From Bradyrhizobium manausense (GTDB taxonomy: Bacteria > Pseudomonadota > Alphaproteobacteria > Rhizobiales > Xanthobacteraceae): a stretch of DNA of 64,000 bases. This document shows positions 1,091 through 18,195 of the stretch, piece by piece. The stretch is taken from positions 372,001-436,000 of the forward strand of contig NZ_JAFCLG010000004.1 in NCBI RefSeq assembly GCF_018129685.1, written 5' to 3'. A program made the position numbers and the translations under genes. The notes beneath the pieces were generated by a model that worked only from the letters and a program-made list of their open reading frames with translations, did not search any database and was not told the origin of the DNA. Position 1 is the stretch's first letter, and every line of letters starts with the position of its first letter.

Positions 1091-2137
1091 ATGCTGGCGG
1101 ATCGGATCGAGGCAAAATGGATCGACGCCTTTTGCGAGATCTTTGAGCGTTGTGCCGTCAAGGCCGGCGATACCGCAGCGATCCTGTCGGAGACCCAGTC
1201 GCGCGCGTTGAATGTGCATTTGGCGGAGCTGGCCCTGCTGCGCATGGGCGCGAAGCCTTTTCATGTCGTCATGCCGACGCCGCGCAACAGGAACATCGTT
1301 CCGGTCCGCTCGACGGGCGCAAGCGAGGCAATCCAGAAGCTTGGGCCGGTCATCACGGCGCTTCAGCAGGCAGGATTCGTGGTGGACTGCACCATCGAGG
1401 GCTTGATGCACGCGGTGGAGACGCCCGAGATCCTGAAAGCGGGCGCTCGCATCCTTGTCATCTCCAACGAGCACCCCGAGGCGCTGGAGCGGATGGTGCC
1501 GGATCCGGCACTCGAGAAGCGCGTTCGTACGGCAGCAAAGGTGCTCCGCGGGACTAAGCGGATGCGGGTTACCTCGAACGCCGGCACGGCTCTGGATGTG
1601 GACATGGTCGGCGCTTCAACGGTCGGGGTCTGGGGCTGGACCGACAAGCCCGGCACGCTGGCGCATTGGCCGGGCGGCATCGTCGTCAGCTTCCCCAAGA
1701 GTGGAACGATTAACGGCACGCTTGTGATGGCGCCCGGCGATGTCAATCTTACGTTCAAGCGCTACCTGACGTCGCCGGTGAAGATGACGTTGAAGGACGA
1801 CTATGTCGTCGAGCTTGAAGGTGAGGGCACGGACGCCGCCATGATGCGCGCCTATCTTGCCGCCTGGGGCGATCGCGAAGCCTATGCGGTCTCCCACGTG
1901 GGCTTCGGCATGAATCCAGGCGCGCGCTACGAAGCACTGTCGATGTATGACCAGCGGGACACCAATGGAACGGAGATCCGCGCCGTCTCCGGCAATTTCC
2001 TGTTTTCGACAGGCGCCAACGAATTTGCCGGCCGCTATACGGCCGGCCATTTCGACCTGCCGATGATGGGCACGACCATCGAGCTCGACGGCGTTGCGGT
2101 GGTCCGGGAAGGCGTGCTTCAGGACGTCTTCGGTTAG
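1091..2137 (+). CDS. NicX-like 2,5-dihydroxypyridine 5,6-dioxygenase / M29-like family protein
   Basis: 348 residues, the length of NicX-type Fe(II) dioxygenases, which open the pyridine ring of 2,5-dihydroxypyridine in the nicotinate maleamate pathway and share a fold with M29 aminopeptidases. His-269 and the motif His-320-x-Asp-322 match in kind and spacing the three iron ligands described for NicX (known for the family; residue matching is by eye). A GGGAG ribosome site precedes the ATG by about 6 bases. It follows two permease genes on the same strand, so the transporter may import its aromatic precursor. Its 3' end overlaps the convergent dehydrogenase gene by 4 bases. No nicotinate hydroxylase or maleamate genes are visible, so the real substrate may be another hydroxylated ring. 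Confidence 0.72.
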   Translation: MLADRIEAKWIDAFCEIFERCAVKAGDTAAILSETQSRALNVHLAELALLRMGAKPFHVVMPTPRNRNIVPVRSTGASEAIQKLGPVITALQQAGFVVDCTIEGLMHAVETPEILKAGARILVISNEHPEALERMVPDPALEKRVRTAAKVLRGTKRMRVTSNAGTALDVDMVGASTVGVWGWTDKPGTLAHWPGGIVVSFPKSGTINGTLVMAPGDVNLTFKRYLTSPVKMTLKDDYVVELEGEGTDAAMMRAYLAAWGDREAYAVSHVGFGMNPGARYEALSMYDQRDTNGTEIRAVSGNFLFSTGANEFAGRYTAGHFDLPMMGTTIELDGVAVVREGVLQDVFG

Positions 2138-3126
2138 CTGCGGTCGAGCACCGGCGGTCGAGCCAACTCGAAGTGCCGGAGCAGGTCAACCATGGCCTGC
2201 AGCCGCTTGACGCGATAGGCATCGATGTCGAGGCCTGAATAGTCGAGGAAGCCGGCGCCCGTGCGCAGGCCGATCCGGCCTTCATGCATATTCCTTGAAA
2301 TGACGTCCGGCGCGCGATAGCGGTCGCTGCCGAGCGCGCTTTCAAGATAGCGGCTGGCGTAGTATAGAATATCTCCGCCGCCCCAATCGATGAATTCGAG
2401 CAACCCCAATACGGCATAACGGAAGCCGAAACCGTAGCGGATCGCCTTGTCGATCTCTTCAGCGCTGGCGACGCCTTCCTCGACCATGCGCGCGGCTTCG
2501 TTCATGGCGAGCGCCTGGATGCGCGGGACTATGAATCCTGGCGTCGCCGCGCAAACCACCGGCACCTTGCCGATGCCCTCGAGCAGCGCCTTGACTTCGT
2601 CAATGATGGCGGGGTCTGTGGCTTTGCCGGGCGACACCTCGACCAATGGCACCAGATAGGCCGGGTTGAGCCAATGCACGTTAAGGAAGCGGCACGGGTT
2701 GACGATTGCGCCGGAGAGGTCGTCGACGAGGATGGTCGACGTCGTCGATGCGATGATCGTGTCTGGGCCGACCTGCTTTGAAGCCGCTCCCAGGACCTCT
2801 CGCTTGAGCGCTACGACTTCGGGAACGCCCTCGAACACCATCTCGGCTTCAGAGAGCGCTGCGCCGCTCTGGCTTGCGGAAACCACTGAGACGCGTGTGA
2901 CGAGCGGTCCGACATCTGCTTCAGTCAGAAGGCCCAGCTTGGACAGGGTGGCAAAGGTCTTGCGGACCTCGTCGAGCGCGTCGGCTTGTAACTTGGCAAA
3001 ATCCTCCGCCGAGCGGGTCTTGATATCGATCATCGTGACCACGTGTCCAGCATAGGCGAACGCGACGGCGATGCCGCGGCCCATGCGACCGGCGCCGAGA
3101 CAGGCGATGGTGGCGCGGCTGGTCAT
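2134..3126 (-). CDS. 3-hydroxyacyl-CoA dehydrogenase
   Basis: 330 residues with an N-terminal Rossmann fold (GAGRMGRGIA near residues 11-20) and the C-terminal HCDH domain. HWLNPAYLVPLVEV corresponds to the family signature that carries the catalytic His-Glu pair. It oxidises a 3-hydroxyacyl-CoA to the 3-ketoacyl-CoA with NAD. It is the last gene of a five-gene minus-strand operon (hydrolase, acyl-CoA dehydrogenase-like, CoA ligase, opine-type dehydrogenase, this gene) and starts 3 bases after the preceding stop, with a GAGGGA ribosome site. The likely role is beta-oxidation of the opened or reduced ring of the anthranilate pathway. Confidence 0.88.
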   Translation of the reverse strand: MTSRATIACLGAGRMGRGIAVAFAYAGHVVTMIDIKTRSAEDFAKLQADALDEVRKTFATLSKLGLLTEADVGPLVTRVSVVSASQSGAALSEAEMVFEGVPEVVALKREVLGAASKQVGPDTIIASTTSTILVDDLSGAIVNPCRFLNVHWLNPAYLVPLVEVSPGKATDPAIIDEVKALLEGIGKVPVVCAATPGFIVPRIQALAMNEAARMVEEGVASAEEIDKAIRYGFGFRYAVLGLLEFIDWGGGDILYYASRYLESALGSDRYRAPDVISRNMHEGRIGLRTGAGFLDYSGLDIDAYRVKRLQAMVDLLRHFELARPPVLDRS

Positions 3127-3129
3127 CGG

Positions 3130-4218
3130 TTAGAATCCCTCACGAAGCAGCGTCTGCAATTCGGTTTTGTGAAGCTTGCCGAGCCCCAAGGTCTCCAACG
3201 TTCGGCCGTTGTGCACAAAGTCTTCGCCGCAGATGGCGCCGCCAATAGCCAGAAAGCCCCTGGCCAGCGGCGTGGCCACACCGGCCAGCTCTCCGACGGA
3301 TACCAGCAGCGACAGCCCCATCCGCAAATCCTCGCGCATGTAGCGATGCTCCGTCAGCACGATCGGCTCGCGCCAGTCACCGGAATCAGTCAGTCGGTCA
3401 TGCGAGCCGCGACCATACATCCAGATCTCACCTTCCTTGGCATAGTGATGGGCGAGCGGGAAGTGCGGCGCGGCATATCCAAGCGCCTCGCGTACCGCGA
3501 TTCGCTCGGCGTCGAGTGCGTCGGTTACACGCCGGATCGATGCCTGCGTACCCTCCTTGTGAATATCCCACCGCTCGAAATGCTCGATCGGGCCCGCGTT
3601 CATCACGATCAGCGGCGGATGGATAATGCAGCCCGCGTTCATTAGTGCGCCGGACAATGCGTCACCGCATGGTTCGATCACATCCGGGAAGGCGCGTCCA
3701 ATCACCTCAAGCGCGTGGGTCGCCTGATCGAGCGGTAAGACGCCGACCGGCAGCCGCTTGGCTCGGATGGTGATCGCAACCTCGAATGGCCCGTGCTTGC
3801 GGGTGAGCCACGGCAATGTGCCGGTCTCGGCGAAGCTGGCCTTGGCCCGATTGCCCGCGTCCCGCATCGCCTGGGCGAAGATCATCGAGCCGAACGTCGC
3901 CGGCGGTAGAAACACGACTTGGTCATCCCGCAAATGCGGCGCGAGGAGCCGGGCGATATCCGGCTGAGCGAAAGCCGGGGCGGGGCACAGGATCAGCTCG
4001 ACGCTGTCGACGGCTTCGGCGATATTGGTGGTGACCAGCGCAAGCTTCACATCGTGCCGGCCATTGTGATCTTTCACGAGGATGCGTGAACCTGCCGCCC
4101 GGTGCGCCGCGACTTGCTCTGCATCACGCCGCCAGAGTCGGACCTCATGCCCCGATAGCGCAAAGTCGCCTGCGGCCGCGAAAGAGCCGTTTCCTCCACC
4201 CAGAACCGCAATCTTCAA
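3130..4218 (-). CDS. Opine (octopine/nopaline)-type NAD(P) dehydrogenase
   Basis: 362 residues: an N-terminal Rossmann domain (VLGGGNGSFAAAGDFALSGH) followed by a helical domain of the NAD/NADP octopine/nopaline dehydrogenase family, with a His in NAGCIIHPP where the family has its catalytic His. Such enzymes reversibly join or split C-N bonds between amino acids and keto acids; relatives reduce keto groups. The start is TTG, six bases after a strong GGAGAGG, and it overlaps the stop of the CoA ligase as TTGA. Upstream ATG starts in frame are absent, so the TTG is well supported. In an anthranilate operon it may deal with the nitrogen or a ring ketone of the intermediate (inference). Confidence 0.78.
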   Translation of the reverse strand: MKIAVLGGGNGSFAAAGDFALSGHEVRLWRRDAEQVAAHRAAGSRILVKDHNGRHDVKLALVTTNIAEAVDSVELILCPAPAFAQPDIARLLAPHLRDDQVVFLPPATFGSMIFAQAMRDAGNRAKASFAETGTLPWLTRKHGPFEVAITIRAKRLPVGVLPLDQATHALEVIGRAFPDVIEPCGDALSGALMNAGCIIHPPLIVMNAGPIEHFERWDIHKEGTQASIRRVTDALDAERIAVREALGYAAPHFPLAHHYAKEGEIWMYGRGSHDRLTDSGDWREPIVLTEHRYMREDLRMGLSLLVSVGELAGVATPLARGFLAIGGAICGEDFVHNGRTLETLGLGKLHKTELQTLLREGF

Positions 4219-5741
4219 GATGCCTCTCCTTGCGCGCGAGACTGCGCATCAAGCTGCTTCAGCAGGAAATGCTGGACCTTGCCCAAGGCCGTACGCGGCA
4301 TGTCGGCGACGAAAACGATGTCGCGCGGAACCTTGTAGCGGGCGAGTTGGGCCTGCACATGAGCTCTTAGCTCGTTCGCTTCGAGCCGGCAGCCGGATCG
4401 CCGGATCACATAAGCGATGGGGACCTCGTCCCAGCGTGGGTCCGGCCTTCCGATCACCGCGCATTCGCTGACATCGGGATGTTCGAGCAGGACGCGTTCG
4501 ACCTCGGCCGGATAGACATTCTCGCCGCCGGAGATGATCATGTTCTTCTTGCGGTCGCGGACCCAGAAATAGCCGTCAGCGTCGCACAGGCCAATATCGC
4601 CAGTGCGATACCAGCCGTCGTGCAGCGCGTCGCGTGTGGCCTCCGCATTACCCCAATACTCGAAGAACACGTTGGGTCCACGCACGGCGATCTCACCTGG
4701 CGTGCCTGCCGACACTTCGTTGCCAGCTTGATCGATCACCTTCGCTTCGCAGCACAGACCGGCAAGACCGGTCGAACCATTGCGGGAGAGATCGCCACCT
4801 AGGCGCGTATAGACTGCGATGGGGCAGGTTTCCGTTGAGCCGTAAACCTGGAGCACCGGTATGCCACGTGCCACGAAGCGCTCGATCAGGTGTGGCGGCA
4901 CGATGGTCGAGCCGGTCGCGACGGCTTTCAGCGACGAGAGATCGCTCGTGGCCCAATCCGGGTGCTCGCTGACGGCCTGGATGATCGCCGGCACCATGAC
5001 CGTCAGGGTCGGTCGTTCCCGTTCTATGGCCGCTAGCGTCGTGTCCGGCGTGAAGCGGGCATGGATCGTGACGGTCGCGCCAAGCTGGAGCGCTGCGGTC
5101 GTCTGAATGTTGAGCCCACCGACATGGAAGAACGGCAGCACCGTGAGCACATGATCGTCCGACGTCATGTTGTGCATGTGCTGGCTCATGACGCCGTTCC
5201 AGAACAGCGCCTCCTGGCGGAGCACTGCGCCTTTTGGCCGCCCAGTGGTTCCCGATGTGTAGACAATGAGGAGCGGGCAGGAGAGATCAGTGTGCGGGTT
5301 ACGTCCGCTGCCCTCGCGGCCGGACAGCAGGCTTTCGAAAGTCATGCCGCGCGGCGGCGCAAAATCGAAGCCGACGACGGCGGTCCCCGGCGCGATTTCT
5401 GGAAGAATGCCTTCAAATGCCTGCTCGAGCACCAGCATCTTGGCGCCGGCATCGGAGAGGATGAAGAGCTGCTCGGCAATTGCCAGCCGCCAGTTGAGCG
5501 GCACCAGCACAGCGCCGAGCCGCGCGCATGCGTAGAGTAGGACCAGATAGTCGGGCCGGTTCAGGCTGAGGATCGCGACGCGGTCACCGCGACCGACACT
5601 GAACTCTTGCTTAAGCGCTGTTGCGGTCCGTTCGATCCGATCGGCGAACGCCGCGTAGCTCAGCCGTTGACCCTCAAAGGCAATGGCCGTCTTGTTTGGC
5701 GAAAACGCCGCATTGCGATCGATCAGACTGCAGAGGTCCAC
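4215..5741 (-). CDS. AMP-forming acyl/aryl-CoA synthetase (class I adenylate-forming)
   Basis: 508 residues from a GTG at 5741, 2 bases after the stop of the acyl-CoA dehydrogenase-like gene. A longer frame exists upstream but would run into that gene, and homology begins at VDLCSLIDRNAAFSPNKTAI. It contains the ATP-binding loop YTSGTTGRPKGAV, the A5 motif YGSTETCP, the A7/A8 region YRTGDIGLCDADGYFWVRDRKKN and the A10 lysine in PRTALGKVQ. It activates a carboxylate to its CoA thioester. It is not the anthranilate ligase itself, which is at 16027; a ring-cleavage acid released by the hydrolase would be a reasonable substrate. The next gene starts by TTGA overlap. Confidence 0.85.
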   Translation of the reverse strand: MDLCSLIDRNAAFSPNKTAIAFEGQRLSYAAFADRIERTATALKQEFSVGRGDRVAILSLNRPDYLVLLYACARLGAVLVPLNWRLAIAEQLFILSDAGAKMLVLEQAFEGILPEIAPGTAVVGFDFAPPRGMTFESLLSGREGSGRNPHTDLSCPLLIVYTSGTTGRPKGAVLRQEALFWNGVMSQHMHNMTSDDHVLTVLPFFHVGGLNIQTTAALQLGATVTIHARFTPDTTLAAIERERPTLTVMVPAIIQAVSEHPDWATSDLSSLKAVATGSTIVPPHLIERFVARGIPVLQVYGSTETCPIAVYTRLGGDLSRNGSTGLAGLCCEAKVIDQAGNEVSAGTPGEIAVRGPNVFFEYWGNAEATRDALHDGWYRTGDIGLCDADGYFWVRDRKKNMIISGGENVYPAEVERVLLEHPDVSECAVIGRPDPRWDEVPIAYVIRRSGCRLEANELRAHVQAQLARYKVPRDIVFVADMPRTALGKVQHFLLKQLDAQSRAQGEAS

Positions 5742-5743
5742 CG

Positions 5744-7033
5744 TTAGTCGTCCGTTTCGCCGGCCTCGTACAGCGCCTCGCGGCCGATCCGGTCGAGGCA
5801 AAGCTCGGCCGTCCAGGGCAGCATCAGTGAGCCGCAGCGGCTGTCGCGATAGATTCGCTCAAGCGGCAGCGACCGGAGCATGGCCTGACCGCCGCAGGTG
5901 CGGATCGCGAGTGCGGCGAGCTCATTGGCGCCTTCCATCACCGAATATTGCGCGGCATAGGCGCGCAACACCTGCTCTTTGCTCGGATTTGCACACGCTT
6001 CGGTGACGGCCTGAAACCAGATCCCCTTGATTTGCTCCAGCTTGATCTGCATCTGCGCGACCGCGATCTGCTTGGTCGGATACATCCGGCGCTTGACCGG
6101 CGACATGCCCGGCACTTCGCCGCGCAAATAGCGCACGGTAAAATCATAAGCGGCCTGCGCGAGGCCCATATAGGTCGGCGACAGCGTCAAGAACATGTGC
6201 GGCCAGCGCATCGCCGCCTGGAAATAGACCCCGCGCGGCATCAGCGCCGAGTCGTTCGGCACGAAGACATCCTTGAACAGCAGCGTTCGAGAGACCGTGC
6301 CGCGCATGCCGAGCGGATCCCAATCGCCGACGACCGAGACGCCTTGCGACTTGGCTGATATCGCGAGATAGAGCGTATTGCGGCGCGAGGCCTTCTCGCC
6401 TTCCTCGATCTCCGTGCAGAGCACGCCGTAATAGTCGGCGTGGCCCGAGAGCGATGCAAAGATCTTCTTGCCGTTGACGATCCAGCCGCCTTCGACCGGC
6501 TTTGCTTCCGTGCCGAAGGCGGCGCCGCCGGCCGCCGCCGCCCCGCCCTCGGAGAACGGCTGCGAATAGATCGCCCCGTCCTCGACGATGCGCTTGGAAT
6601 GAACGGCCCGCCGCTTTTCGTGCTCCGCGCGGGTGTCCGCGTCCATGTCGAGATCATCAGCCAAGGGCCCCGACCATAGCGTCGAGCAGACATGCATGTT
6701 CCAGGTCAGCGCGGTCGCGCCGCAATAGCGGCCGATCTCTGCGGCGGCCAGGGCGTAGGTCTGGTAGTTCGCGCCAAGCCCGCCGTGCTTCTTGGGCACG
6801 GCGATGCCGAGCAGGCCGACGCGGTGCAGATCGCGGTAGTTCTCGGTCGGGAACACAGCCTCACGGTCGTATTTCGCGGCGCGGCCGGCGAATACGCTCT
6901 GGCCGATCTCCCGCGCTCGCGCGATGATGCCAGCTTGCTCGTCGTTTAGGCGGAACGCCACGGGATCGAAGATTGGTGCATCCAGCGCGACATTGCCGGT
7001 TGCGGTGATCGTCTTGTTGACTTGCATGGTCAT
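5744..7033 (-). CDS. Acyl-CoA dehydrogenase superfamily protein
   Basis: 429 residues from ATG 7033, chosen because a GGTGA ribosome site lies 8 bases upstream and the hydrolase stop lies 7 bases away. The order is an N-terminal helical domain, a beta domain around residues 135-245 (for example YSQPFSEGG and GWIVNGKKIFASLSG) and a C-terminal helical domain with the family sequence EGANELAALAIRTCGG. The usual catalytic Glu of the YEGT motif is not seen: the matching segment reads LPWTAEL. It may therefore use a Glu elsewhere, as isovaleryl-CoA dehydrogenase does, or act as a flavin oxygenase-like relative. It probably dehydrogenates a CoA intermediate in the anthranilate pathway. Confidence 0.82.
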   Translation of the reverse strand: MTMQVNKTITATGNVALDAPIFDPVAFRLNDEQAGIIARAREIGQSVFAGRAAKYDREAVFPTENYRDLHRVGLLGIAVPKKHGGLGANYQTYALAAAEIGRYCGATALTWNMHVCSTLWSGPLADDLDMDADTRAEHEKRRAVHSKRIVEDGAIYSQPFSEGGAAAAGGAAFGTEAKPVEGGWIVNGKKIFASLSGHADYYGVLCTEIEEGEKASRRNTLYLAISAKSQGVSVVGDWDPLGMRGTVSRTLLFKDVFVPNDSALMPRGVYFQAAMRWPHMFLTLSPTYMGLAQAAYDFTVRYLRGEVPGMSPVKRRMYPTKQIAVAQMQIKLEQIKGIWFQAVTEACANPSKEQVLRAYAAQYSVMEGANELAALAIRTCGGQAMLRSLPLERIYRDSRCGSLMLPWTAELCLDRIGREALYEAGETDD

Positions 7034-7040
7034 TGCGCAG

Positions 7041-7859
7041 TCACCCGTGTTTTGCAGCGAAACGATCGACGAAACTGGCAAGTGCCTTGTCGAAGGTATC
7101 GGGGCGTTCGAGGTTGGCGAGATGGCCGACGCCGGGGAGTTCGACATATTCGGCCGCAGGAATGTAGGTCGCGGTCTTTGCCATCATCGGCGCCGGCGCA
7201 TTGTTGTCCTTCGAGCCGGACAACAGCAGCGTCGGCACAGAGATATCCTTGAGCGTGCTGCGCTGATCAAAGCCGATCAACGCCAGCATCATAGCGCGAT
7301 AGCTCGCTTCCGGCACGCTGGCCATGCATTCGCGCGCAAGCTCCATGCCCTTCGGGTCGGGATCTTCGCCGACGAGCTCCTTCACCAGCGAGGGTGCCAG
7401 CGATTTCATCGTCTCGCCGCGGTCGAGCGGACCCAGACGCGCAGCGATGAATGATTTCTGCCAGTCGCCATCGGCCTTGCCGAAGGCCGGGCTTGTCTGC
7501 GCCAGAACGATCGCGCGCGCCAGCTTCGGCGATTGCGCTAGCCATTTCTGGACGATCATGCCGCCGATCGAGTGGCCGACAAGAATGGGTTTCGCGGCGC
7601 CAAGCTGCTCGATAAATTGCTGGAGCGCATCAGCCAAGGCAGCGATGCTGACGCTGGCGAGCGGCGCCGATCCGCCATAGCCGGGCATGTCCCACGCGAT
7701 CGTACGGAAGCGATTGCCGAACGTAGCAAGCTGCTGCCGCCAGGCCCGCGCCGCCCCGCCAATGCCGTGCAGGAAAATCAGCGGTGTCGCGCCCTGATCG
7801 CCCGCGACTTCGTAGGCGAAGCGTCCGTCCTTCGTTATCATTGGCGCAGGCTGCGACAC
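7041..7859 (-). CDS. Alpha/beta hydrolase
   Basis: 272 residues with the oxyanion motif LHGIGG (about 30-35), nucleophile elbow GHSIGG (near residue 95), a likely acid Asp in SGSKDNNAP and His in GVGHLANLE. This is the typical layout of 3-oxoadipate enol-lactonase-like or C-C bond hydrolases. The start is GTG with AAAGGA 7-8 bases upstream. It is the first gene of the five-gene minus operon, and two copies of the island palindrome lie upstream in the region shared with the divergent SDR. A thioesterase or ring-opening hydrolase role fits, but neither is shown. Confidence 0.82.
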   Translation of the reverse strand: MSQPAPMITKDGRFAYEVAGDQGATPLIFLHGIGGAARAWRQQLATFGNRFRTIAWDMPGYGGSAPLASVSIAALADALQQFIEQLGAAKPILVGHSIGGMIVQKWLAQSPKLARAIVLAQTSPAFGKADGDWQKSFIAARLGPLDRGETMKSLAPSLVKELVGEDPDPKGMELARECMASVPEASYRAMMLALIGFDQRSTLKDISVPTLLLSGSKDNNAPAPMMAKTATYIPAAEYVELPGVGHLANLERPDTFDKALASFVDRFAAKHG

Positions 7860-7920: not shown

Positions 7921-7934
7921 TTTTATACTTAAAG
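7921..7934. promoter_or_regulatory. Island palindrome, site 1 (probable MarR operator)
   Basis: TTTTATACTTAAAG, a diverged copy of the TTTnAAGnnTnAAA palindrome; its right half CTTAAA matches the site at 9730. It lies 62 bases upstream of the hydrolase GTG, on the side of the minus operon in the divergent intergenic region. Confidence 0.55.
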
Positions 7935-8001
7935 CAATTTTTGGGCCGGTCCCTTTCGCCATGGCGTTCGCCACGTCGATCCGCCGCTTTCGTTGCAAAA
8001 A

Positions 8002-8015
8002 TTTGAAGGTTAAAA
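8002..8015. promoter_or_regulatory. Island palindrome, site 2 (probable MarR operator)
   Basis: TTTGAAGGTTAAAA, sharing the TTTGAAG half with the two sites at 15253 and 15322. It lies 41 bases upstream of the SDR start, so the divergent control region carries one site per promoter. Confidence 0.6.
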
Positions 8016-8055
8016 TATATCGGAGGAACGACCATCGGATCTCAGGAGCCCGCGC

Positions 8056-8817
8056 ATGTCCGGATTGCCGCATTCGCCGCACGCGTTGGTGACCGGTGGC
8101 GGTCGCGGCATCGGCCGCGCGATTGCAGCGTCCCTTGTCGGCGCTGGCGCAACTGTGACCGTGCTTGGCCGGAATGCTGCTACTCTCCAAGAAGCGATCA
8201 GCGCAGGGGCGGCTCATTTTGCGGCCGTGGCCGACGTCTCGGATGAAGCTGCGCTGAATGTGGCGATAATCCAGGCGCACGCGCGAAAGCCGATCGATAT
8301 CCTGATTGCCAACGCCGGCAGCGCCGAATCCGCGCCGTTTACGAAGTCCGACAGTGCTCTTTTTGCACGCATGATGGATGTCAATTTCATGGGCGTAGTG
8401 CACGCCGTCCACGCGGTACTGCCGGGGATGAAGGATCGGCCCTATGGCCGCATTGTTGCAATTGCATCGACAGCCGGACTCAAGGGCTATGCCTATGTGA
8501 GCGCATACGCGGCGGCAAAGCATGCTGTGGTAGGTCTCGTTCGTTCATTGGCACAGGAGATGGCCGGCAGCCATGTGACCGTAAATGCAGTCTGCCCCGG
8601 CTTCACGGACACCGATCTGGTTGCCGGCAGCATCGACAATATCATGAAAAAGACCGGGCGAACCCGCGAGCAGGCCATCGCGGAGCTCGCAAAACACAAT
8701 CCGCAGGGGCGTCTCATCACGCCCCAAGAAGTAGCCAATGCCGTGCTTTGGTTGTGCGGAGAGCACGCCAGTGCGATCACGGGACAGGCGATTGCTGTCG
8801 CCGGTGGCGAGATCTAG
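8056..8817 (+). CDS. SDR-family oxidoreductase
   Basis: 253 residues of the classical short-chain dehydrogenase family: TGGGRGIG cofactor motif (13-20), NAG (about 88-90), a catalytic Ser near ASTAG, and YAAAK (Tyr-Lys pair). The C-terminus ends in the usual beta strand with AVAGGEI. The start is supported by AGGAG eight bases upstream. The enoyl-CoA hydratase follows 26 bases later on the same strand. A 3-hydroxyacyl-CoA or ring-ketone dehydrogenase of the anthranilate route is the natural reading. The divergent promoter shared with the hydrolase operon holds two copies of the island palindrome. Confidence 0.87.
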
Positions 8818-8843
8818 CGGCCCGGATCAAGGAAGGAAATCTC

Positions 8844-9680
8844 ATGAGCAGACCAGCCAATCCCGTCACCGTGCCACTCGCTGACTATTCGCCGCAACAT
8901 TTCCTGCTCGCCGTGGTTGACGGCGTTGCAACGGTAACGCTCAATCGTCCCGAGCGGAAGAATCCGCTGACCTTTGAGAGCTACCGCGAGCTAACCGATC
9001 TCTTCCGCGCTTGTGCGTTCGATGACGCGGTCAAGTCGATCGTCGTTACCGGCGCCGGCGGGAATTTCTCGTCCGGCGGCGACGTGTTCGAAATCATCGG
9101 TCCGCTGGTGAAGATGGACACCAAGGGATTGACGGCGTTCACGCGGATGACCGGTGACCTCGTCAAGGCGATGCGGGCCTGCCCGCAGCCGATCGTGGCT
9201 GCGGTCGAGGGCATTTGCGCCGGCGCCGGCGCGATCATCGCCATGGCATCTGACATGCGGCTCGCGTCGAGCGGCGCCAAGGTAGCGTTCTTGTTCAACA
9301 AGGTCGGTCTTGGCGGCTGCGACATGGGCGCCTGCGCGATCCTGCCGCGGATTATCGGCCAGTCTCGCGCATCCGAGTTGCTCTACACGGGCCGGTTCAT
9401 GACCGCGGAAGAGGGCGAGCGCTGGGGCTTCTTCAGCCGGATCGTTACGCCAGAGCAGGTGCTGCTCCAGGCGCAACTGCTGGCCAAGCAGGTCGCGGAG
9501 GGGCCGACTTTCGGCAACACCATGACCAAGCGGATGCTGGCCATGGAATGGGCGATGTCGGTGGAGGAAGCGATCGAGGCGGAGGCGATTGCTCAAGCGC
9601 TGTGCATGACGACGGCGGATTTCGAGCGCGCTTTCCATGCCTTCGCCAATAAGGTCAAGCCGGTCTTTATGGGCGACTAA
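8844..9680 (+). CDS. Enoyl-CoA hydratase/isomerase family protein
   Basis: 278 residues from ATG 8844, which follows GGAAGGAAATCTC; a longer in-frame extension overlaps the SDR and is not needed. It has crotonase features: [10 protein letters not shown], the first oxyanion-hole segment GGNFSSGGD, the second [15 protein letters not shown], and a C-terminal trimerisation helix. The canonical Glu positions are less clear ([15 protein letters not shown]), so hydratase, hydrolase or ring-opening chemistry cannot be separated by eye. It probably forms an operon with the SDR and acts on a ring-derived CoA ester. Confidence 0.84.
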
Positions 9681-9727
9681 ACCGGTCGCCGTCGGGGACG
9701 GCCAGCCAACGGGGGCTTGCGCGAAAT

Positions 9728-9745
9728 TATTTTAGGCTTAAAATA
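9728..9745. promoter_or_regulatory. Island palindrome, site 3 (probable MarR operator)
   Basis: TATTTTAGGCTTAAAATA, 18 bases with arms matching at 8 of 9 pairs. Its 14-base core is the exact reverse complement of the site at 15962. It is centred 42 bases upstream of the start of the monooxygenase/reductase gene. Confidence 0.72.
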
Positions 9746-9778
9746 GTTTTCGTAGCGGGGTGAATTGGCGAGGCTCCC

Positions 9779-12130
9779 ATGAAAGTCGCGATCATCGGTG
9801 GTGGACCCGCGGGTCTCTACGCAGCGATCCTGCTCAAGAAGCAGCGCCCGAGCGCCGAGATCACCGTGTACGAGCGCAATCGCGCTGACGACACGTTCGG
9901 CTTCGGCGTGGTGTTCTCGGACGCCACCCTCGACAAGTTCGAAAAGCACGACCTTCCGAGCTATCGCCGTATCACCCAGGAATTCGCCTATTGGGACGAC
10001 ATCGCCGTGCATTTTCGCGGCACGGTGCACCGGGTTGGTGGCAACGGCTTTTGCGGCTGCTCGCGGCAGAAGCTGCTTCTGATCCTGCAGGAGCGGGCGC
10101 GCGAGCTTGGCGTCAGCCTGCATTTCGAAGTCGATATCGACGACGAATCTCGCTTTGCCGATGCAGATCTCATTTTGCTCGCAGATGGCGTCAATAGCCG
10201 CTTTAGGGAGAAGCACGTCGATCACTTCCAGCCCGAAGTTGACCTCCGCACCAACAAGTTTGCCTGGATGGGCTCAACCAGGCCCCTCGACGCCTTCACC
10301 TTCGTCTTTCAGGAGACCGAATGGGGGCCGTTCATCGCCCACGCCTATCAGTACGAGGCTGGGCACTCGACCTGGATTTTCGAGACCGATCCGGTGACGT
10401 TCGAGCGTGCGGGGCTGATTGGGCTGAACGAGACCCAATCGGCGGCGCGGATGGCCGAGATTTTTGGCTGGTTCCTCGGCGAGCACAAGCTGCTGACCAA
10501 CCGCTCGATGTGGCGCAATTTCCCGATGATCCGCAGCAAGCGCTGGGTCAAAGACAATATGGTGCTGCTTGGCGATGCCAAGGCGAGTGCACATTTCTCG
10601 ATCGGTTCGGGCACCAAGCTTGCGATGGAGGACGCGATCGCACTGGCCGAAGCGATGGCAAAGGCGCCCAGCGTCAGGGCTGCATTGGATCTTTACGAAC
10701 ACGGCCGTCGCGAGGAGGTCGAGAAGACTCAGCATGCTGCCGACGTCTCGCTGGTCTGGTTCGAACATGTCGACCGCTTCTGGGATTTCGATCCCGTGCA
10801 GTTTGCCTTTGGCGTGATGACACGCTCGAAGGCCATCACCTATGACAATCTAAAGCTGCGCGCGCCTGATTTTGTCGTCGAAGTCGAGAAGTCGTTCGCT
10901 AGGCAAGTGCGCAGCAATGGCTTCGACGTCAGTACCGACAAGCCGATGGTGCCGCTGTTCCAGCCGTTTCGTCTGCGCGAGATGGAGGTCGCCAACCGCG
11001 CCGCAATGTCGCCCATGTGTATGTACTCGGCGAAAGAGGGCGTCCCCGGCGACTTCCATCTCGTCCACTACGGTTCGCGCGCGATTGGTGGCGCCGGTCT
11101 GATATTCACGGAGATGACCTGTGTCAGCCGCGACGCGCGCATCACGCCAGGCTGCGCGGGTCTATGGAATGACGAACAGGAAACGTCCTGGCGGCGCATC
11201 GTCGATTTCGTGCACGGCAACTCGGCTGCAAAAATCTGCCTGCAACTCGGGCATGCCGGCCGCAAGGGCGCAACCAAGCTGATGTGGGATGGCATCGATC
11301 GGCCGCTGGAGGAAGGTGGTTGGGATGTCGTCTCCGCATCGCCGCTCCCCTATTTCCCGGACAGTCAGGTGCCGCGCGAGCTTGATCGCGCTGGAATGAA
11401 CGCGGTGAGGGATTCATTTGTCGCCTCAGCCAAGCGCGGCGAGCGCTGTGGCTTCGATATGCTCGAGCTGCATTGCGCCCACGGCTATCTCCTGGCCAGC
11501 TTCATCTCGCCGCTGACAAACACCCGCGTCGACGAGTATGGCGGATCGCTCGAAAACCGGTTGCGTTTCCCGCTCGAGGTTTTTGAGGCACTGCGCGCCG
11601 TGTGGCCGAAGCACAAGCCGATGTCGGTGCGCATTTCGGCGACGGATTGGGCCGAGGGCGGCATCGACGGCGACGATGCGGTGGCGATCGCGCGCGCCTT
11701 CGCCGCGGCTGGCGTCGATCTCGTCGATGTCTCGACGGGGCAGACGGTCCGTGATGCGCAGCCGGTCTACGGGCGCATGTTCCAGACTCCGTTCTCCGAC
11801 CAGATCCGCAACGAGGCGCGGGTGGCGACCATGTGCGTCGGCAACATCACGACCGCGGACCAGGCCAACACCATCCTGGCCGCCGGCCGGGCTGATCTTG
11901 TTGCGCTCGGGCGGCCGCACCTGGTCGATCCTTTCTTCACCATGAAGGCGGCGGCCTGGTACGGGGCGAACGACGCGTTCTGCCCGCCCCAATATCTGCC
12001 CGGAAAGGACCAGATTTTCCGCAATAGCGTGCGCGACCGGCAGGATCTCGAGGAGCTGAGAATTAAGGCTAAGCCAAAGACCCGGGCCGAGCTCAAGGCG
12101 GAGGCGACAAAGCCGCTTGCGGCGGAGTGA
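9779..12130 (+). CDS. 2-aminobenzoyl-CoA (anthraniloyl-CoA) monooxygenase/reductase, fused flavoprotein
   Basis: 783 residues with two flavin domains. Residues 1 to about 370 are a group A flavin monooxygenase: [13 protein letters not shown] motif, DGVNSR and [16 protein letters not shown], most like salicylyl-CoA 5-hydroxylases. From about residue 388 there is an Old Yellow Enzyme domain of the YqjM/XenA type: [18 protein letters not shown], the HCAH active-site pair and [10 protein letters not shown]. This fusion is the hallmark of the Azoarcus enzyme that hydroxylates 2-aminobenzoyl-CoA at C5 with O2 and NAD(P)H, then reduces the ring without forming an aromatic phenol. GAGG precedes the ATG. 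A strong island palindrome lies just upstream, and a second monooxygenase follows. Confidence 0.92.
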
Positions 12131-12181
12131 CAGCCCGTGCGACGTTAACCCATTGCCTGTGTATTCAGTGGAGTTAAGGCG

Positions 12182-13432
12182 ATGAAGGCAATTATCGTCG
12201 GTGGCGGTATTGGTGGTCTCACCACGGCGTTGATGCTGCGGGCCCGCGGTATCGGCTGTGAGATCTTTGAGCAAGCCGATACCATTCGCGAGCTCGGGGT
12301 CGGTATCAACACCCTGCCTCATGCTATGCGCGAACTTGCCGGCCTTGGCTTGCTGCAAAAGCTCGACGACGTCGCGATCCGTACCGATCAGCTCTACTAC
12401 CTCAACCGCCATGGCCAGGAGGTCTGGCGCGAGGCGCGGGGCGTGGACGCCGGCCACGATGTGCCGCAATTTTCCATCCACCGCGGCCGGCTCCAGGGTG
12501 TCATCCATCGGGCCGTCGAGGAGCGGCTTGGTACGGATGCAATCCGCACCGGTTGCCGGCTCAGCGCCTTCACCCAGGACGAGGGCGGCGTCACGGCCTA
12601 CTTCTTCGATCGTGCCGGTACACACATCCACACCGCGCGCGGCGATATCCTGATCGGCGCCGACGGGATCCATTCGCGTGTCCGTGACACGCTATTCCCG
12701 AATGAAGGGCCGCCGTGCTGGAACGGCCTGATGCTGTGGCGCGGTGCGCGTGACTGGCCGCTGTTCCTCACGGGCAAGTCGATGATCGTCGCGGGCGGCC
12801 TCAACGCCAAGGTGGTGATCTATCCGATCGCGGAGGGTTCGAGCCCGGCGAGCCGCCTCACCAATTGGGCCGTGCTGGTGAAGGTAGGCGAGGGCAATGC
12901 CCCTCCGCCGCGGAAGGAAGACTGGTCGCGGCCGGGCCGGCGCGAGGAACTGATGCCGCATGTCGCGCGCTTCTCGGTGCCATACATCGACGTCAAGAGC
13001 CTGATCTCGGCAACGCCCGAATTCTACGAATATCCGACCTGCGATCGCGATCCCTTGCCCTATTGGTCGTCGGGTCGCGTCACGCTGCTCGGCGATGCCG
13101 CGCATCCCATGTACCCGGTCGGCTCCAACGGTGCCTCGCAGGCGATCCTCGACGCGCGCTGTCTTGCGGACGCGCTGGTCCGCGCCGAGCATCCGCGCCA
13201 GGCATTGATGGAATATGAAAAGAAGCGCCTGCCGATGACGGCGGACATCGTCCGCTCCAATCGCCGCGGCGGGCCCGAGGGTGTCATCGATGCCGTTGAG
13301 CAGCTCGCGCCCGACGGCTTCGACAATGTTGACAACGTGCTGAGCTATTCCCAGCGCGAGGCGATCGTGCGTGGCTATGCCACCAAGGCCGGCTTTGCCG
13401 CGGTCCCGGGACTCGCGGCGGTGCGGGCCTGA
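12182..13432 (+). CDS. FAD-dependent monooxygenase (PhzS/salicylate hydroxylase-like)
   Basis: 416 residues with the complete group A monooxygenase set: GGGIGGLTTAL at the N-terminus, GADGIHSRVRDTLF in the middle, and LLGDAAHPMYPVGSNGASQA near residue 300. The closest family by these motifs is the PhzS-like flavin-dependent oxidoreductases. GGAG and AAGG precede the ATG. It follows the monooxygenase/reductase gene by 51 bases and is probably co-transcribed. It could hydroxylate free anthranilate, a side product or a downstream intermediate; the published CoA pathway does not require it, so its job is open. Confidence 0.85.
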   Translation: MKAIIVGGGIGGLTTALMLRARGIGCEIFEQADTIRELGVGINTLPHAMRELAGLGLLQKLDDVAIRTDQLYYLNRHGQEVWREARGVDAGHDVPQFSIHRGRLQGVIHRAVEERLGTDAIRTGCRLSAFTQDEGGVTAYFFDRAGTHIHTARGDILIGADGIHSRVRDTLFPNEGPPCWNGLMLWRGARDWPLFLTGKSMIVAGGLNAKVVIYPIAEGSSPASRLTNWAVLVKVGEGNAPPPRKEDWSRPGRREELMPHVARFSVPYIDVKSLISATPEFYEYPTCDRDPLPYWSSGRVTLLGDAAHPMYPVGSNGASQAILDARCLADALVRAEHPRQALMEYEKKRLPMTADIVRSNRRGGPEGVIDAVEQLAPDGFDNVDNVLSYSQREAIVRGYATKAGFAAVPGLAAVRA

Positions 13433-13441
13433 TGCGAGCCC

Positions 13442-13900
13442 CTAGCCGGCGCCTGGGGGCGGCGGCAGGAAGTGAATGTTGAACTCGGCGGCCATTGCCA
13501 CAACGTCCTCCGGTTTCTGTTCCTTCATGTTGTGAAGGCCCCAGAACAAGTCGAACAGCTTTTTGGTCGGTGAGACCCAGAACAGCACTTTTGCTGTCTG
13601 ATCCGACTTGTTGAAGATGCCGTGCGGCACGCCCATGCCGAGACGGATCAGATCACCGGGCGTTGCCTGCGCTTCCGAGTTGCCCAGCACGAAGTCGAGC
13701 TTGCCCTCCAGCATGTAGAGATATTCGTCCTGATCTGGATGAATATGCGGCGGCACGAACGTGCCCGGCGGCAAGGTAGCATGCCAGGAGAAGCTGTTCT
13801 CGGCGCAGCTCTTCGGCACATAGGTCTGGCCGAGGATGTTCCAGGAAATGCCCTGGATGCCCTCGTTGGCCCGCGTGATGCCGGTGATTTCGCTCTTCAC
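13442..13900 (-). CDS. Cupin-domain protein
   Basis: 152 residues from a GTG preceded by GGGAGGAC. Cupin motif 1 is clear: PGTFVPPHIHPDQDEYLYMLEG supplies two His and a Glu as metal ligands. Motif 2 (GDLIRLGMGVPHGIFN) supplies the third His. It is a single-domain cupin, so it could be a dioxygenase, an isomerase or a ligand-binding protein. It lies 31 bases downstream of the solute-binding protein gene on the same strand and converges with the monooxygenase gene, and is probably expressed from the promoter at about 15200. Confidence 0.82.
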   Translation of the reverse strand: MKSEITGITRANEGIQGISWNILGQTYVPKSCAENSFSWHATLPPGTFVPPHIHPDQDEYLYMLEGKLDFVLGNSEAQATPGDLIRLGMGVPHGIFNKSDQTAKVLFWVSPTKKLFDLFWGLHNMKEQKPEDVVAMAAEFNIHFLPPPPGAG

Positions 13901-13931
13901 TTGTAGTCCTCCCTAAACGCGACGCGCGGCC

Positions 13932-15107
13932 TTAGTTCGCCGCCTTGCAGTCCTTGGCATAGCGGTCGCCGTAATTGTCGAACACTTTCTGGACGATCTC
14001 GGTCTGGAACTTGCCGTCCGGACGCTTGGCGACTTTGGTCAGGTAGAAGTCCTGGATCGGATAGCCGTTGGTGTTGAATTTGAACGAGCCGCGCAGCGAT
14101 GTGAAGTCCGCCTTCCTCAAGGCTGCCCCGACGGCATCCTTGTTGGAGAGGTCACCCTTCACACTCTTGATTGCACTGTCGATCAGCATCGCTGCGTCAT
14201 ACGCCTGCATGGCATAGGTGCCCGGCACGCCGTTATAGGCTGCCTCATAGGCGGCGACGAACTTCTTGTTCTGCGGATTCTCGAGATTGGGCGCCCAGTT
14301 GGCGCCGCCGAACATGCCGACGGCCGCATCCTGCTGTGCCGGCAGGGTCGATTCATCAACCGTGAAAGCCGAAAGCACCGGAATGCTGTCGGTGAGACCG
14401 GCCTGCTTGTACTGCTTGACGAGGTTGACGCCGAGGCCGCCCGGCATGAACGTGAAGAGCGCATCGGGCTTCTGCGACGCAATCTTCGACAGCTCCGGCT
14501 GGAAGTCCAGCGTGTTGAGCGGCATGTAGGATTCTTCGACGATCTCGCCCTTATAGTCGAGCTTGAAGCCGGCGACCGAGTCCTTGCCGGCCTGATAGTT
14601 CGGAACCATCAAATACATCCGCTTGTAACCGCGATCCTGCGCCACCTTGCCGAGGATCTCGTGGACCTGGTCGTTCTGATACGACGTCACATAGAAGAAG
14701 GGATTGCAGTCCTTGCCGGCGAATGTCGACGGGCCGGCATTGGGGCTGATCAGGAAGGTCTTCGATTCCGTGACCGGCCGGTGAATCGCCTGGAGGATGT
14801 TGGAGAAGATCGGGCCGACCACGAAATCGACCTTGTCGCGTTCCAGAAGACCCTTGACCTTGGTCACCGCTGCGTCTGGTTTCAATTCGTCGTCGACCAC
14901 GACGACCTCGACGTCGCGCCCGCCCATCTTGCTGCCGAGATCCTTCACGGCGAGGGCAAAGCCGTCGCGAACCTGCTGGCCGAGTGCGGCGGCAGGCCCC
15001 GAGAGGGTCACGATCACGCCGAGCTTGATCTTCTCCTGCGCGAGGGCAGGGTTCATCGCGGTGCCAAGCAGCAAGGCTGCTGCAGCCAAGGTCAGTTGCG
15101 TCTTCAT
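13932..15107 (-). CDS. Periplasmic solute-binding protein, branched-chain amino acid (LivK) type
   Basis: 391 residues from ATG 15107, eight bases after GGGGGA. The N-terminus is a signal peptide (MKTQLTLAAAALLLGTAMNPALA, cleavage after ALA). The mature part starts EKIKLGVIVTLSGPAAALGQ, typical of type I periplasmic binding proteins used by Liv-like ABC importers of amino acids and aromatic acids. A longer frame upstream has no signal-peptide logic. No LivHMGF genes are adjacent, so it must share a transporter encoded elsewhere. A palindrome copy lies at its promoter. Binding of anthranilate or a related aromatic is the likely task. Confidence 0.87.
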   Translation of the reverse strand: MKTQLTLAAAALLLGTAMNPALAQEKIKLGVIVTLSGPAAALGQQVRDGFALAVKDLGSKMGGRDVEVVVVDDELKPDAAVTKVKGLLERDKVDFVVGPIFSNILQAIHRPVTESKTFLISPNAGPSTFAGKDCNPFFYVTSYQNDQVHEILGKVAQDRGYKRMYLMVPNYQAGKDSVAGFKLDYKGEIVEESYMPLNTLDFQPELSKIASQKPDALFTFMPGGLGVNLVKQYKQAGLTDSIPVLSAFTVDESTLPAQQDAAVGMFGGANWAPNLENPQNKKFVAAYEAAYNGVPGTYAMQAYDAAMLIDSAIKSVKGDLSNKDAVGAALRKADFTSLRGSFKFNTNGYPIQDFYLTKVAKRPDGKFQTEIVQKVFDNYGDRYAKDCKAAN

Positions 15108-15252
15108 GATTGATCCCCCGGTGACATCAAGGCTTGCGCTGCAAGCCGCGTACTCCGATCCAAGCTTAAGCCGATGACGGCGCTCGCGGCAAGCCAAGCT
15201 CGAGACGTCGCCACCGTGCCGGCAGCAGGGCATGCAAGCGGCGCGCCAATTA

Positions 15253-15266
15253 TTTGAAGCCTAAAG
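15253..15266. promoter_or_regulatory. Island palindrome, site 4 (probable MarR operator)
   Basis: TTTGAAGCCTAAAG, one mismatch-level variant of the core at 15962. It lies about 145 bases upstream of the solute-binding protein start, in the divergent region shared with the MarR gene. Confidence 0.6.
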
Positions 15267-15321
15267 AAATGGCCGTGCGGTCGGTTGTTGCAGCTTTGGA
15301 CTTGCGGCCGGCGCCGATTTA

Positions 15322-15335
15322 TTTGAAGCTCAAAA
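15322..15335. promoter_or_regulatory. Island palindrome, site 5 (probable MarR autoregulatory operator)
   Basis: TTTGAAGCTCAAAA, 26 bases upstream of the MarR start. The position would allow the regulator to block its own transcription. The centre of site 4 lies 69 bases away. Confidence 0.6.
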
Positions 15336-15360
15336 CGTTGGTAAATCCGAGCCGGCGCCA

Positions 15361-15879
15361 ATGCCGGCCGCGAGTGACTGCATCGAGATGCTCGATTCCG
15401 AGACCAAGGCTGTCGAAACGCCAGAGGACCATGCCGAAGAGCTCCGGCTGTGGTTGCGTCTGCTCACCTGCACGACACTGATCGAGGGCGAGGTCCGCGG
15501 CCGGTTGCGGCAGCGCTTCGACGTCACGCTGCCCCGTTTCGATCTGATGGCGCAGCTCGACAAGGCGCCCGATGGCATGACGCTGTCCGATGTCTCCAAG
15601 CGCATGATGGTGTCCAACGGCAACGTCACCGGCCTCGTCGAGCGGCTGGTGGAGTCCGGCCATCTCGACCGTCGCACATCGGAGACTGATCGCCGAGTAC
15701 AGGTGATCCGCCTCACAAAACTCGGTCGTGCCGAGTTTCGCAGGATGGCCGCGGAACACGAGACCTGGATCGCAGATCTCTTCTCTGATTTGACACCGAA
15801 AGATGTGCGCGAACTGATGCGGCTCCTCGCCAAGACCAAGGCATCGGCGCAGAAATCGGCCGCCCGCCGTCGGCCTTAA
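15361..15879 (+). CDS. MarR-family transcriptional regulator of the anthranilate island
   Basis: 172 residues with a winged helix-turn-helix: MTLSDVSKRMMVSNGNVTGLV is the recognition region (about residues 75-97) and the wing is DRRTSETDRRVQVIRLT. MarR proteins of CoA-dependent aromatic pathways often repress and sense the aryl-CoA (known for family members such as CouR and BadR). Two palindrome copies lie in its upstream region and one more lies upstream of the ligase gene directly after it, so it is the obvious candidate for binding all six. An alternative start is the ATG at 15388. The ligand 2-aminobenzoyl-CoA is an inference. Confidence 0.88.
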   Translation: MPAASDCIEMLDSETKAVETPEDHAEELRLWLRLLTCTTLIEGEVRGRLRQRFDVTLPRFDLMAQLDKAPDGMTLSDVSKRMMVSNGNVTGLVERLVESGHLDRRTSETDRRVQVIRLTKLGRAEFRRMAAEHETWIADLFSDLTPKDVRELMRLLAKTKASAQKSAARRRP

Positions 15880-15961
15880 GTCGGCCGGCCAGCAGGTCGC
15901 CGACCCCTTTTGCCACAGGAAAATGCATGGAATGCCCAAAATCCGCTATTGCGCCAAACTG

Positions 15962-15975
15962 TTTTAAGCCTAAAA
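15962..15975. promoter_or_regulatory. Island palindrome, site 6 (probable MarR operator)
   Basis: TTTTAAGCCTAAAA, identical to the reverse complement of the core of site 3. It is centred 58 bases upstream of the aryl-CoA ligase ATG. Confidence 0.72.
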
Positions 15976-17733: not shown

Positions 17734-18195
17734 TTGTCCGTGACGACGCCGAAAGGCCCCCAGCTTGCGGTGCTGCCGACCGACGATGACGAGACCCGCG
17801 CGCGGGCGCAGGTGCTTCAGCCCTCCGGCTGGCCGACGCCGAAGGGCTATGCCAACGGCATGGCCGCCGAGGGGCGCATTGTCGTCACGGGCGGCGTGAT
17901 CGGCTGGGATGCCGACGAGCGCCTTGCAGACGGCTTCGTGGCACAGGTTCGCCAAACCCTGAGCAACATCGCTGAAATTCTTGGCGAGGCCGGTGCCCGG
18001 CCCGAGCATCTGGTGCGCCTGACCTGGTATGTCGTCGATATGGAAGAATACCTGACGAACCTGAAGGAGCTCGGCAAGATCTACCGTGCGGTCTTTGGCG
18101 CGCATTATCCCGCGATGGCACTGGTTCAGGTGGTGCGCCTCGTCGAGAAGGCCGCGCGCGTCGAGATCGAGGCCACTGCGGTCATTCCAAGCTGA
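17734..18195 (+). CDS. RidA (YjgF/YER057c/UK114) family protein lacking the canonical Arg
   Basis: 153 residues from a TTG at 17734; a GTG at 17740 with AGGAA in front is an equally good start. The Rid fold is recognisable from VVTGGVIGWD through QVRQTLSNIAEIL and WYVVDMEEY to the C-terminal VEIEATAVIP. Rid proteins hydrolyse reactive enamines or imines to ketones and ammonia. The Arg that holds the substrate carboxylate in RidA (the PAR segment before the last strands) is replaced here by Met-128 (HYPAMALVQV), as in Rid subfamilies without the standard deaminase activity. It sits 15 bases after the anthranilate-CoA ligase and may act on an amino-ring CoA ester. Confidence 0.84.
   Translation: MSVTTPKGPQLAVLPTDDDETRARAQVLQPSGWPTPKGYANGMAAEGRIVVTGGVIGWDADERLADGFVAQVRQTLSNIAEILGEAGARPEHLVRLTWYVVDMEEYLTNLKELGKIYRAVFGAHYPAMALVQVVRLVEKAARVEIEATAVIPS

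Follow-up and report, generated by a model that had tools for sequence, protein, structure and literature searches.

A single regulator and a sharply defined operator appear to govern an island of genes for the aerobic use of anthranilate in Bradyrhizobium manausense. The island lies in a stretch of 64,000 nucleotides (contig NZ_JAFCLG010000004.1, positions 372,001 to 436,000), which is referred to here as the window and within which positions are counted from its first letter. Six near-palindromes, S1 to S6, are found between the genes of the island, and we propose, with a probability of roughly 0.85, that the MarR-family protein encoded at 15361 uses them as operators: its dimer would bind a 24-bp palindrome and repress the island, along with the MarR gene itself, until freed from the DNA by a pathway compound. 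The sites, to which no strand is assigned, and the proposed regulator are as follows.

7921..7934: candidate operator S1, TTTTATACTTAAAG; centre about 68 bp upstream of a minus-strand gene run starting with an alpha/beta hydrolase (7859)
8002..8015: candidate operator S2, TTTGAAGGTTAAAA; centre about 48 bp upstream of the start of a short-chain dehydrogenase/reductase (SDR) gene (8056)
9730..9743: candidate operator S3, TTTTAGGCTTAAAA; centre about 43 bp upstream of the monooxygenase/reductase start (9779)
15253..15266: candidate operator S4, TTTGAAGCCTAAAG; in the divergent region between the ABC substrate-binding gene (15107, minus strand) and the MarR gene, centre about 153 bp from the substrate-binding start
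15322..15335: candidate operator S5, TTTGAAGCTCAAAA; centre about 33 bp upstream of the MarR start (15361)
15962..15975: candidate operator S6, TTTTAAGCCTAAAA; centre about 58 bp upstream of the CoA-ligase start (16027)
15361..15879, plus strand: MarR-family regulator of 172 aa, matching PF12802 (MarR_2) at 46.8 bits over a cut-off of 27 and PF01047 (MarR) at 39.1 over 24.6; proposed binder of S1 to S6

All six palindromes had been named in an earlier, sequence-only reading of this DNA, and sequence inspection and pattern search recovered each of them. As that reading had stated, they are confined to control regions: all are intergenic and fall into four gaps, namely hydrolase–SDR (7921 and 8002), hydratase–monooxygenase (9730), substrate-binding–MarR (15253 and 15322), and MarR–ligase (15962). 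Again as claimed, the minus strand at 9730 and the plus strand at 15962 carry the same 14-mer. The general pattern it offered fits exactly only at 8002, 9730 (minus strand) and 15962, with one mismatch at each of the other three, and S3 together with its flanks is symmetric at 20 of 24 positions. Its impression that the window holds no further copy was correct: there is no seventh site in the 64 kb, and only 38702 and 47603 come within two mismatches, with two each.

Taken alone, this loose pattern is a weak signal: at up to two mismatches it gives 15 strand-matches in the window against 7.9 expected by shuffling, and 15 was reached in five of 100 shuffles. Because this is only about twofold over shuffled sequence, it is the clustering that constitutes the signal. 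Within one mismatch, the 7.48-Mb genome contains 62 strand-matches at 53 places, six of which lie within the 8 kb of the island; the density elsewhere in the genome predicts 0.05 there (Poisson P about 2e-11). A matrix built from any five of the sites scores the sixth at 22.7 to 39.9 bits, and the best non-site position in the window reaches at most 11.0. The motif is not common at random sites across the genome; had it been, the proposal would have failed by the sequence-only reading's own standard.

With its flanks, the motif forms a perfect palindrome of 24 bp with the consensus AATTATTTTAAGCTTAAAATAATT and the core TTTNAAGCTTNAAA. This consensus combines the window sites with 11 strong sites from ten other loci; these extra sites were chosen with the window matrix, which biases them towards the window motif. 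Conservation among close relatives was assessed at the loci of the 80 best MarR relatives from named genomes (78 Bradyrhizobium, one Bradyrhizobiaceae, and one Frankia; the best at least 98% identical), of which 65 to 80 could be aligned per site. Identity to the window was 95.8–99.3% in the sites versus 77–83% in the rest of the gaps: 99.3% for S1 (73 loci), 95.8% for S2 (74 loci), 98.2% for S3 (65 loci), 97.9% for S4 (79 loci), 98.8% for S5 (80 loci), and 98.2% for S6 (76 loci).

The operator recurs with the regulator far beyond the genus. Fetched loci are given L numbers, sampled genomes G numbers (G000 being the organism's own genome), and contigs C numbers. We fetched 80 MarR-homologue loci, mostly from the top of two match lists with some entries skipped, and dropped six from congeners (L139, L227, L228, L229, L233, and L234), leaving a cross-genus set of 74 loci from 54 genera. 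The six-site matrix reaches at least 20 bits in 59 of the 74 loci (44 of the 54 genera), the reversed matrix in none, and 50 half-column-permuted palindromic matrices in 2.8 loci on average and 19 at most. A top match of at least 20 bits located no more than 300 bp upstream of a cluster gene was observed in 56 loci, compared with an average of 1.6 and a maximum of 18 for the permuted matrices; in L144, L231, and L236, a strong top match lies outside the upstream zones. Homologues of the SDR, hydratase, monooxygenase/reductase, ligase, and Rid genes accompany the MarR gene in varied order in most fetched loci.

The pairing was also examined in a sample of 398 genomes of the phylum. A MarR match at E <= 1e-15 is encoded in 76 of them and a full-length monooxygenase/reductase (one alignment, E < 1e-200) in 70, not counting G399, where the match is split into two pieces of one open frame; 67 of the 70 also have the MarR match. 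Among the three that do not, G425 carries a 20-bit site upstream of its monooxygenase/reductase gene, just after which the contig ends, and in G651 and G670 (loci L240 and L241) no site upstream of this gene is found among the top matches listed. When the monooxygenase/reductase gene lies at least 36 kb from the MarR gene or on another contig, a site of 19–36 bits is found directly upstream of it in six of eight loci (L243–L248). Near MarR relatives of about 30% identity (L251–L254) there is no match over 9 bits. The predicted binding of the sites by the MarR protein is strongly supported by this pattern of codistribution. The sequence-only reading had tied this protein to the six sites; the tie stands on the cross-genus loci and the sampled genomes, whereas the scope it gave was too narrow, as two more sites lie outside the island. 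Further support comes from Bradyrhizobium genome G479, which encodes a diverged second monooxygenase/reductase with its own MarR gene and a 41-bit site between the two (L227, contig C54).

The two sites outside the island emerged from a whole-genome search with a profile of 23 rows, 12 of which are the six sites in both orientations and match by construction; 150 of 295 first-look candidates had been scored. At E <= 10, the search returned 15 strand-matches at eight places, the six island sites plus C1:852777 and C23:276841, with modest single E-values (0.003 to 3). The seventh site (G000:C1:852777-852797; L259:9781), far from the island, lies 72 bp upstream of a minus-strand run of a hydrolase, a tryptophan 2,3-dioxygenase, and a kynureninase. 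The alpha/beta hydrolase occupies the position of a kynurenine formamidase, although its NCBIfam match is hormone-sensitive lipase, and a similar site precedes the same three genes in two other bradyrhizobia (L264 and L266). The eighth site (G000:C23:276841-276863; L262:8846) is flanked on one side by a cupin/flavin-monooxygenase-like pair and on the other by an AraC-type gene. For the latter, NCBIfam gives AndR, the regulator of anthranilate dioxygenase, as the top match, at 150.7 bits and far below the cut-off of 350.

A site of at least 20 bits is present somewhere in nine of 16 kynureninase loci (L259, L264, L266, L268, L270–L273, and L275), not directly before the kynureninase gene in L272, L273, and L275. 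Among the one-mismatch places of the genome, 28 loci were fetched, three of them island sites; of the other 25, only C1:852780 scored over 13 bits, while C23:276845 was scored separately and the remaining places were covered by the profile search. The genome scan that had been suggested as a check on the proposal thus returned the six island sites and two functionally fitting places, and the regulon probably extends past the island, joining kynurenine and anthraniloyl-CoA catabolism. The six sites, together with their recurrence beside MarR relatives and at tryptophan-breakdown genes, suggest a single, coherent circuit of regulation. Genome G022 has genes for tryptophan dioxygenase and kynureninase in one run with a MarR homologue (L249:6305-8911), and two adjoining variant palindromes lie upstream.

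The other genes of the island, and the run downstream of S1, are listed below.

2134..7859, minus strand: gene run of alpha/beta hydrolase, acyl-CoA dehydrogenase, AMP-ligase, octopine-dehydrogenase-like protein, and 3-hydroxyacyl-CoA dehydrogenase
8056..8817, plus strand: SDR; matches shown are below their cut-offs, and SDR homologues occur in clusters elsewhere
8844..9680, plus strand: enoyl-CoA hydratase family protein; NF006107, 462.8 over 330
9779..12130, plus strand: two-domain flavin monooxygenase/old-yellow-enzyme-type reductase, 783 aa; NF006101, 1124 bits over 1078; PF01494 and PF00724
12182..13432, plus strand: FAD-dependent monooxygenase-like protein; NF005720 over cut-off; PF01494
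13442..13900, minus strand: small cupin protein; PF07883; shares 48% identity with the cupin next to the eighth site
13932..15107, minus strand: ABC-transporter periplasmic substrate-binding protein; PF13458, 262 bits
16027..17718, plus strand: benzoate-CoA ligase family protein; TIGR02262, 387.7 bits over 375.25
17734..18195, plus strand: Rid-family protein (enamine/imine deaminase-like); PF01042 over cut-off, TIGR00004 below cut-off

The winged-helix domain of the MarR protein is above its Pfam family cut-off, and the island contains both a two-domain monooxygenase/reductase and an aryl-CoA ligase, the combination expected of a 2-aminobenzoyl-CoA pathway cluster. Judged from its neighbours, the 9779..12130 enzyme would be of the 2-aminobenzoyl-CoA monooxygenase/reductase type. 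The ligase is probably an anthranilate-CoA ligase, and the substrate-binding protein likely serves uptake. Kynureninase and tryptophan dioxygenase genes occur within the cluster in L178, L234, L270, L271, and L272 and beside it in L274 (six genomes), a neighbourhood that favours anthranilate as the substrate of the island. The NCBIfam name of the 9779..12130 enzyme is salicylyl-CoA 5-hydroxylase; neighbours elsewhere point to anthranilate, and the name may be misleading. A salicylyl-CoA pathway is less likely, given that genes for kynureninase and tryptophan dioxygenase either belong to such clusters or are preceded by the operator. The run at 2134..7859 is presumably one transcript, and homologues of its first three genes (hydrolase, acyl-CoA dehydrogenase, and AMP-ligase) also belong to the clusters of L162 and L176. 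The L176 cluster, which is of the anthranilate type, further contains a homologue of the protein encoded at 1091-2137, for which there is no Pfam match; this suggests that the island extends further to the left (1091-7859).

We infer binding by the MarR protein, repression rather than activation, and a signal drawn from the pathway. A MarR dimer on each 24-bp palindrome, near the transcription start, would keep the island genes and the MarR gene itself from being transcribed, and a pathway compound would release it from the DNA. The regulon would then switch on anthranilate uptake, its activation with CoA, and the monooxygenase/reductase pathway, together with the unlinked hydrolase, tryptophan dioxygenase, and kynureninase run that makes anthranilate in the same genome. 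Repression fits because of the positions of the sites, five of which have their centres 33–68 bp ahead of a start codon and the sixth about 153 bp ahead, and because S5 precedes the MarR gene, predicting autoregulation, and S6 the ligase gene.

Several observations weigh against this reading. The loci are not independent, being mostly list tops with several from the same genus, and 15 of the 74 lack a match of 20 bits, with nothing over 6 in L152 and L167 and none over 9 in L212. If the score is disregarded, the top match falls in an upstream zone in 69 of 74 loci, where area alone predicts 3.6, but the same count is 25 for the reversed matrix and averages 32 for the permuted ones, with a maximum of 58. 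The AT-rich cluster gaps inflate it, and placement by itself therefore counts for far less than the comparison with area implies. Two of the eight monooxygenase/reductase loci with a distant MarR gene (L242 and L257) have no upstream site, and seven of the 16 kynureninase loci have no site of at least 18 bits. Conservation of the recognition helix hints only faintly at binding by the MarR protein: identity to the window protein is 0.74 in the stretch 83-95, 0.57 in 73-98, and 0.51 in the rest. A scan of the four control regions with a sigma-70-type consensus found no promoter, so that an overlap of sites and promoters is only presumed.

On the signal, the proposal is tentative. By analogy with CoA-sensing MarR proteins, 2-aminobenzoyl-CoA would be the likeliest single candidate, although we would not put it at even odds; relatives such as CouR make it plausible (PMC4737184). 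The observations would also accommodate anthranilate, kynurenine, or a CoA intermediate further along the pathway. CouR of Rhodococcus jostii RHA1, which responds to p-coumaroyl-CoA, is likewise a MarR regulator of a CoA-dependent aromatic pathway, and its regulon likewise has several operators, including a divergent region beside its own gene. CouR is a weak sequence match to the island MarR (E 0.0035), and its box, given as cATTGA-N5-TCAATg in PMC4737184, differs from the TTTNAAGCTTNAAA core found here. The AATTATTTTAAGCTTAAAATAATT consensus is not a CouR-like operator; this comparison is with the CouR box alone, which is not known to define the CoA-thioester-sensing group (CouR, FerR, FerC, HcaR, and BadR).

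The same operator and regulator could instead respond to a compound that precedes the CoA ester, free anthranilate or kynurenine, and we consider this a real but somewhat doubtful possibility. The precedent is IadR, which represses and is released by its ligand, a free acid, indole-3-acetate (PMC9613470). The kynureninase genes of the organism's own genome carry a site, and in G022 the MarR protein beside tryptophan dioxygenase and kynureninase genes is 39% identical to that of the island, in a genome with no ligase match at E <= 1e-60 and no monooxygenase/reductase match at E <= 1e-80; this is a small point for an earlier signal and mildly against 2-aminobenzoyl-CoA. G022 is, however, one diverged case with variant sites, and the ligase gene, present in most fetched clusters, has a site of its own, S6, as expected if the product of the ligase is the signal.

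IadR and IadR2 of the auxin-degrading loci of Variovorax and Bradyrhizobium are, like the island protein, MarR proteins; the route to which they are tied ends in anthranilate. IadR (7kfo) is a distant match to the island MarR (30 bits). In its own genome the island MarR is not the second MarR of an iad locus: the two PF00848 (ring-hydroxylating alpha-subunit) matches are on contig C12 and the island is on C34. For IadR2, neither a DNA site nor a ligand is given in PMC9613470, and identity of the island MarR with IadR2 is no more than a possibility. On contig C54 of G479, about 35 kb from the second monooxygenase/reductase (L227), there is a Rieske-dioxygenase locus carrying a MarR gene whose product is 37% identical to that of the island (L228); in our reading of its genes, this locus would be iad-like, that is, for auxin degradation. 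The closest solved sequence to the island MarR is the MarR-family regulator PDB 3boq (77.8 bits), which by eye looks nearer to the L228-type relative.

Less likely, the protein is an activator or dual regulator rather than a repressor. FerR and BadR are given as repressor/activator in a review table (PMC10458429), and the centre of S4 is far from the substrate-binding start, but the other five sites are at distances from start codons where a bound protein is expected to cover the promoter or transcription start. That another regulator binds the palindromes, with the MarR gene as a passenger in the cluster, we consider improbable. The AraC-type gene at the eighth site offers a candidate; the symmetry of the palindrome, however, suits a MarR dimer better than a regulator of the AraC type. 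Across many rearrangements of the cluster, the MarR gene and the site remain together, and beside the relatives of about 30% identity the site is missing. AT-rich palindromes that arose by chance in a GC-rich genome might be suggested by the twofold excess of the loose pattern and by its reversed form, which is commoner genome-wide (101 vs. 62 strand-matches), but they are ruled out for practical purposes by clustering, conservation, the leave-one-out scores, and the cross-genus scans.

The two-domain 2-aminobenzoyl-CoA monooxygenase/reductase pathway of Azoarcus evansii and Arthrobacter Rue61a likewise combines a flavoenzyme with a CoA ligase for anthranilate (PMC3534580). The word MarR does not occur in the main text of that paper. 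Among the papers listed in searches of open-access literature, none concerned a regulator or operator of the aerobic anthranilate (2-aminobenzoyl-CoA) route.

Under the repression model, this route gains a concrete regulator, a sharply defined operator, and a regulon predicted to span several loci. Its predictions, eight sites, one protein, and three candidate signals, are directly testable at the bench. More broadly, and with about equal chances of being right or wrong, one orthologous MarR protein and one ancient operator may govern the whole tryptophan–kynurenine–anthraniloyl-CoA route in Alpha- and other Proteobacteria; operons would enter or drop out of the regulon as they gain or lose the 24-bp site. 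Anthranilate is also a product of auxin degradation in bradyrhizobia, as described in PMC9613470, and in some of them the same regulon may extend to auxin-derived anthranilate. Within the bradyrhizobia, the predicted regulon would link tryptophan breakdown to the use of anthraniloyl-CoA.

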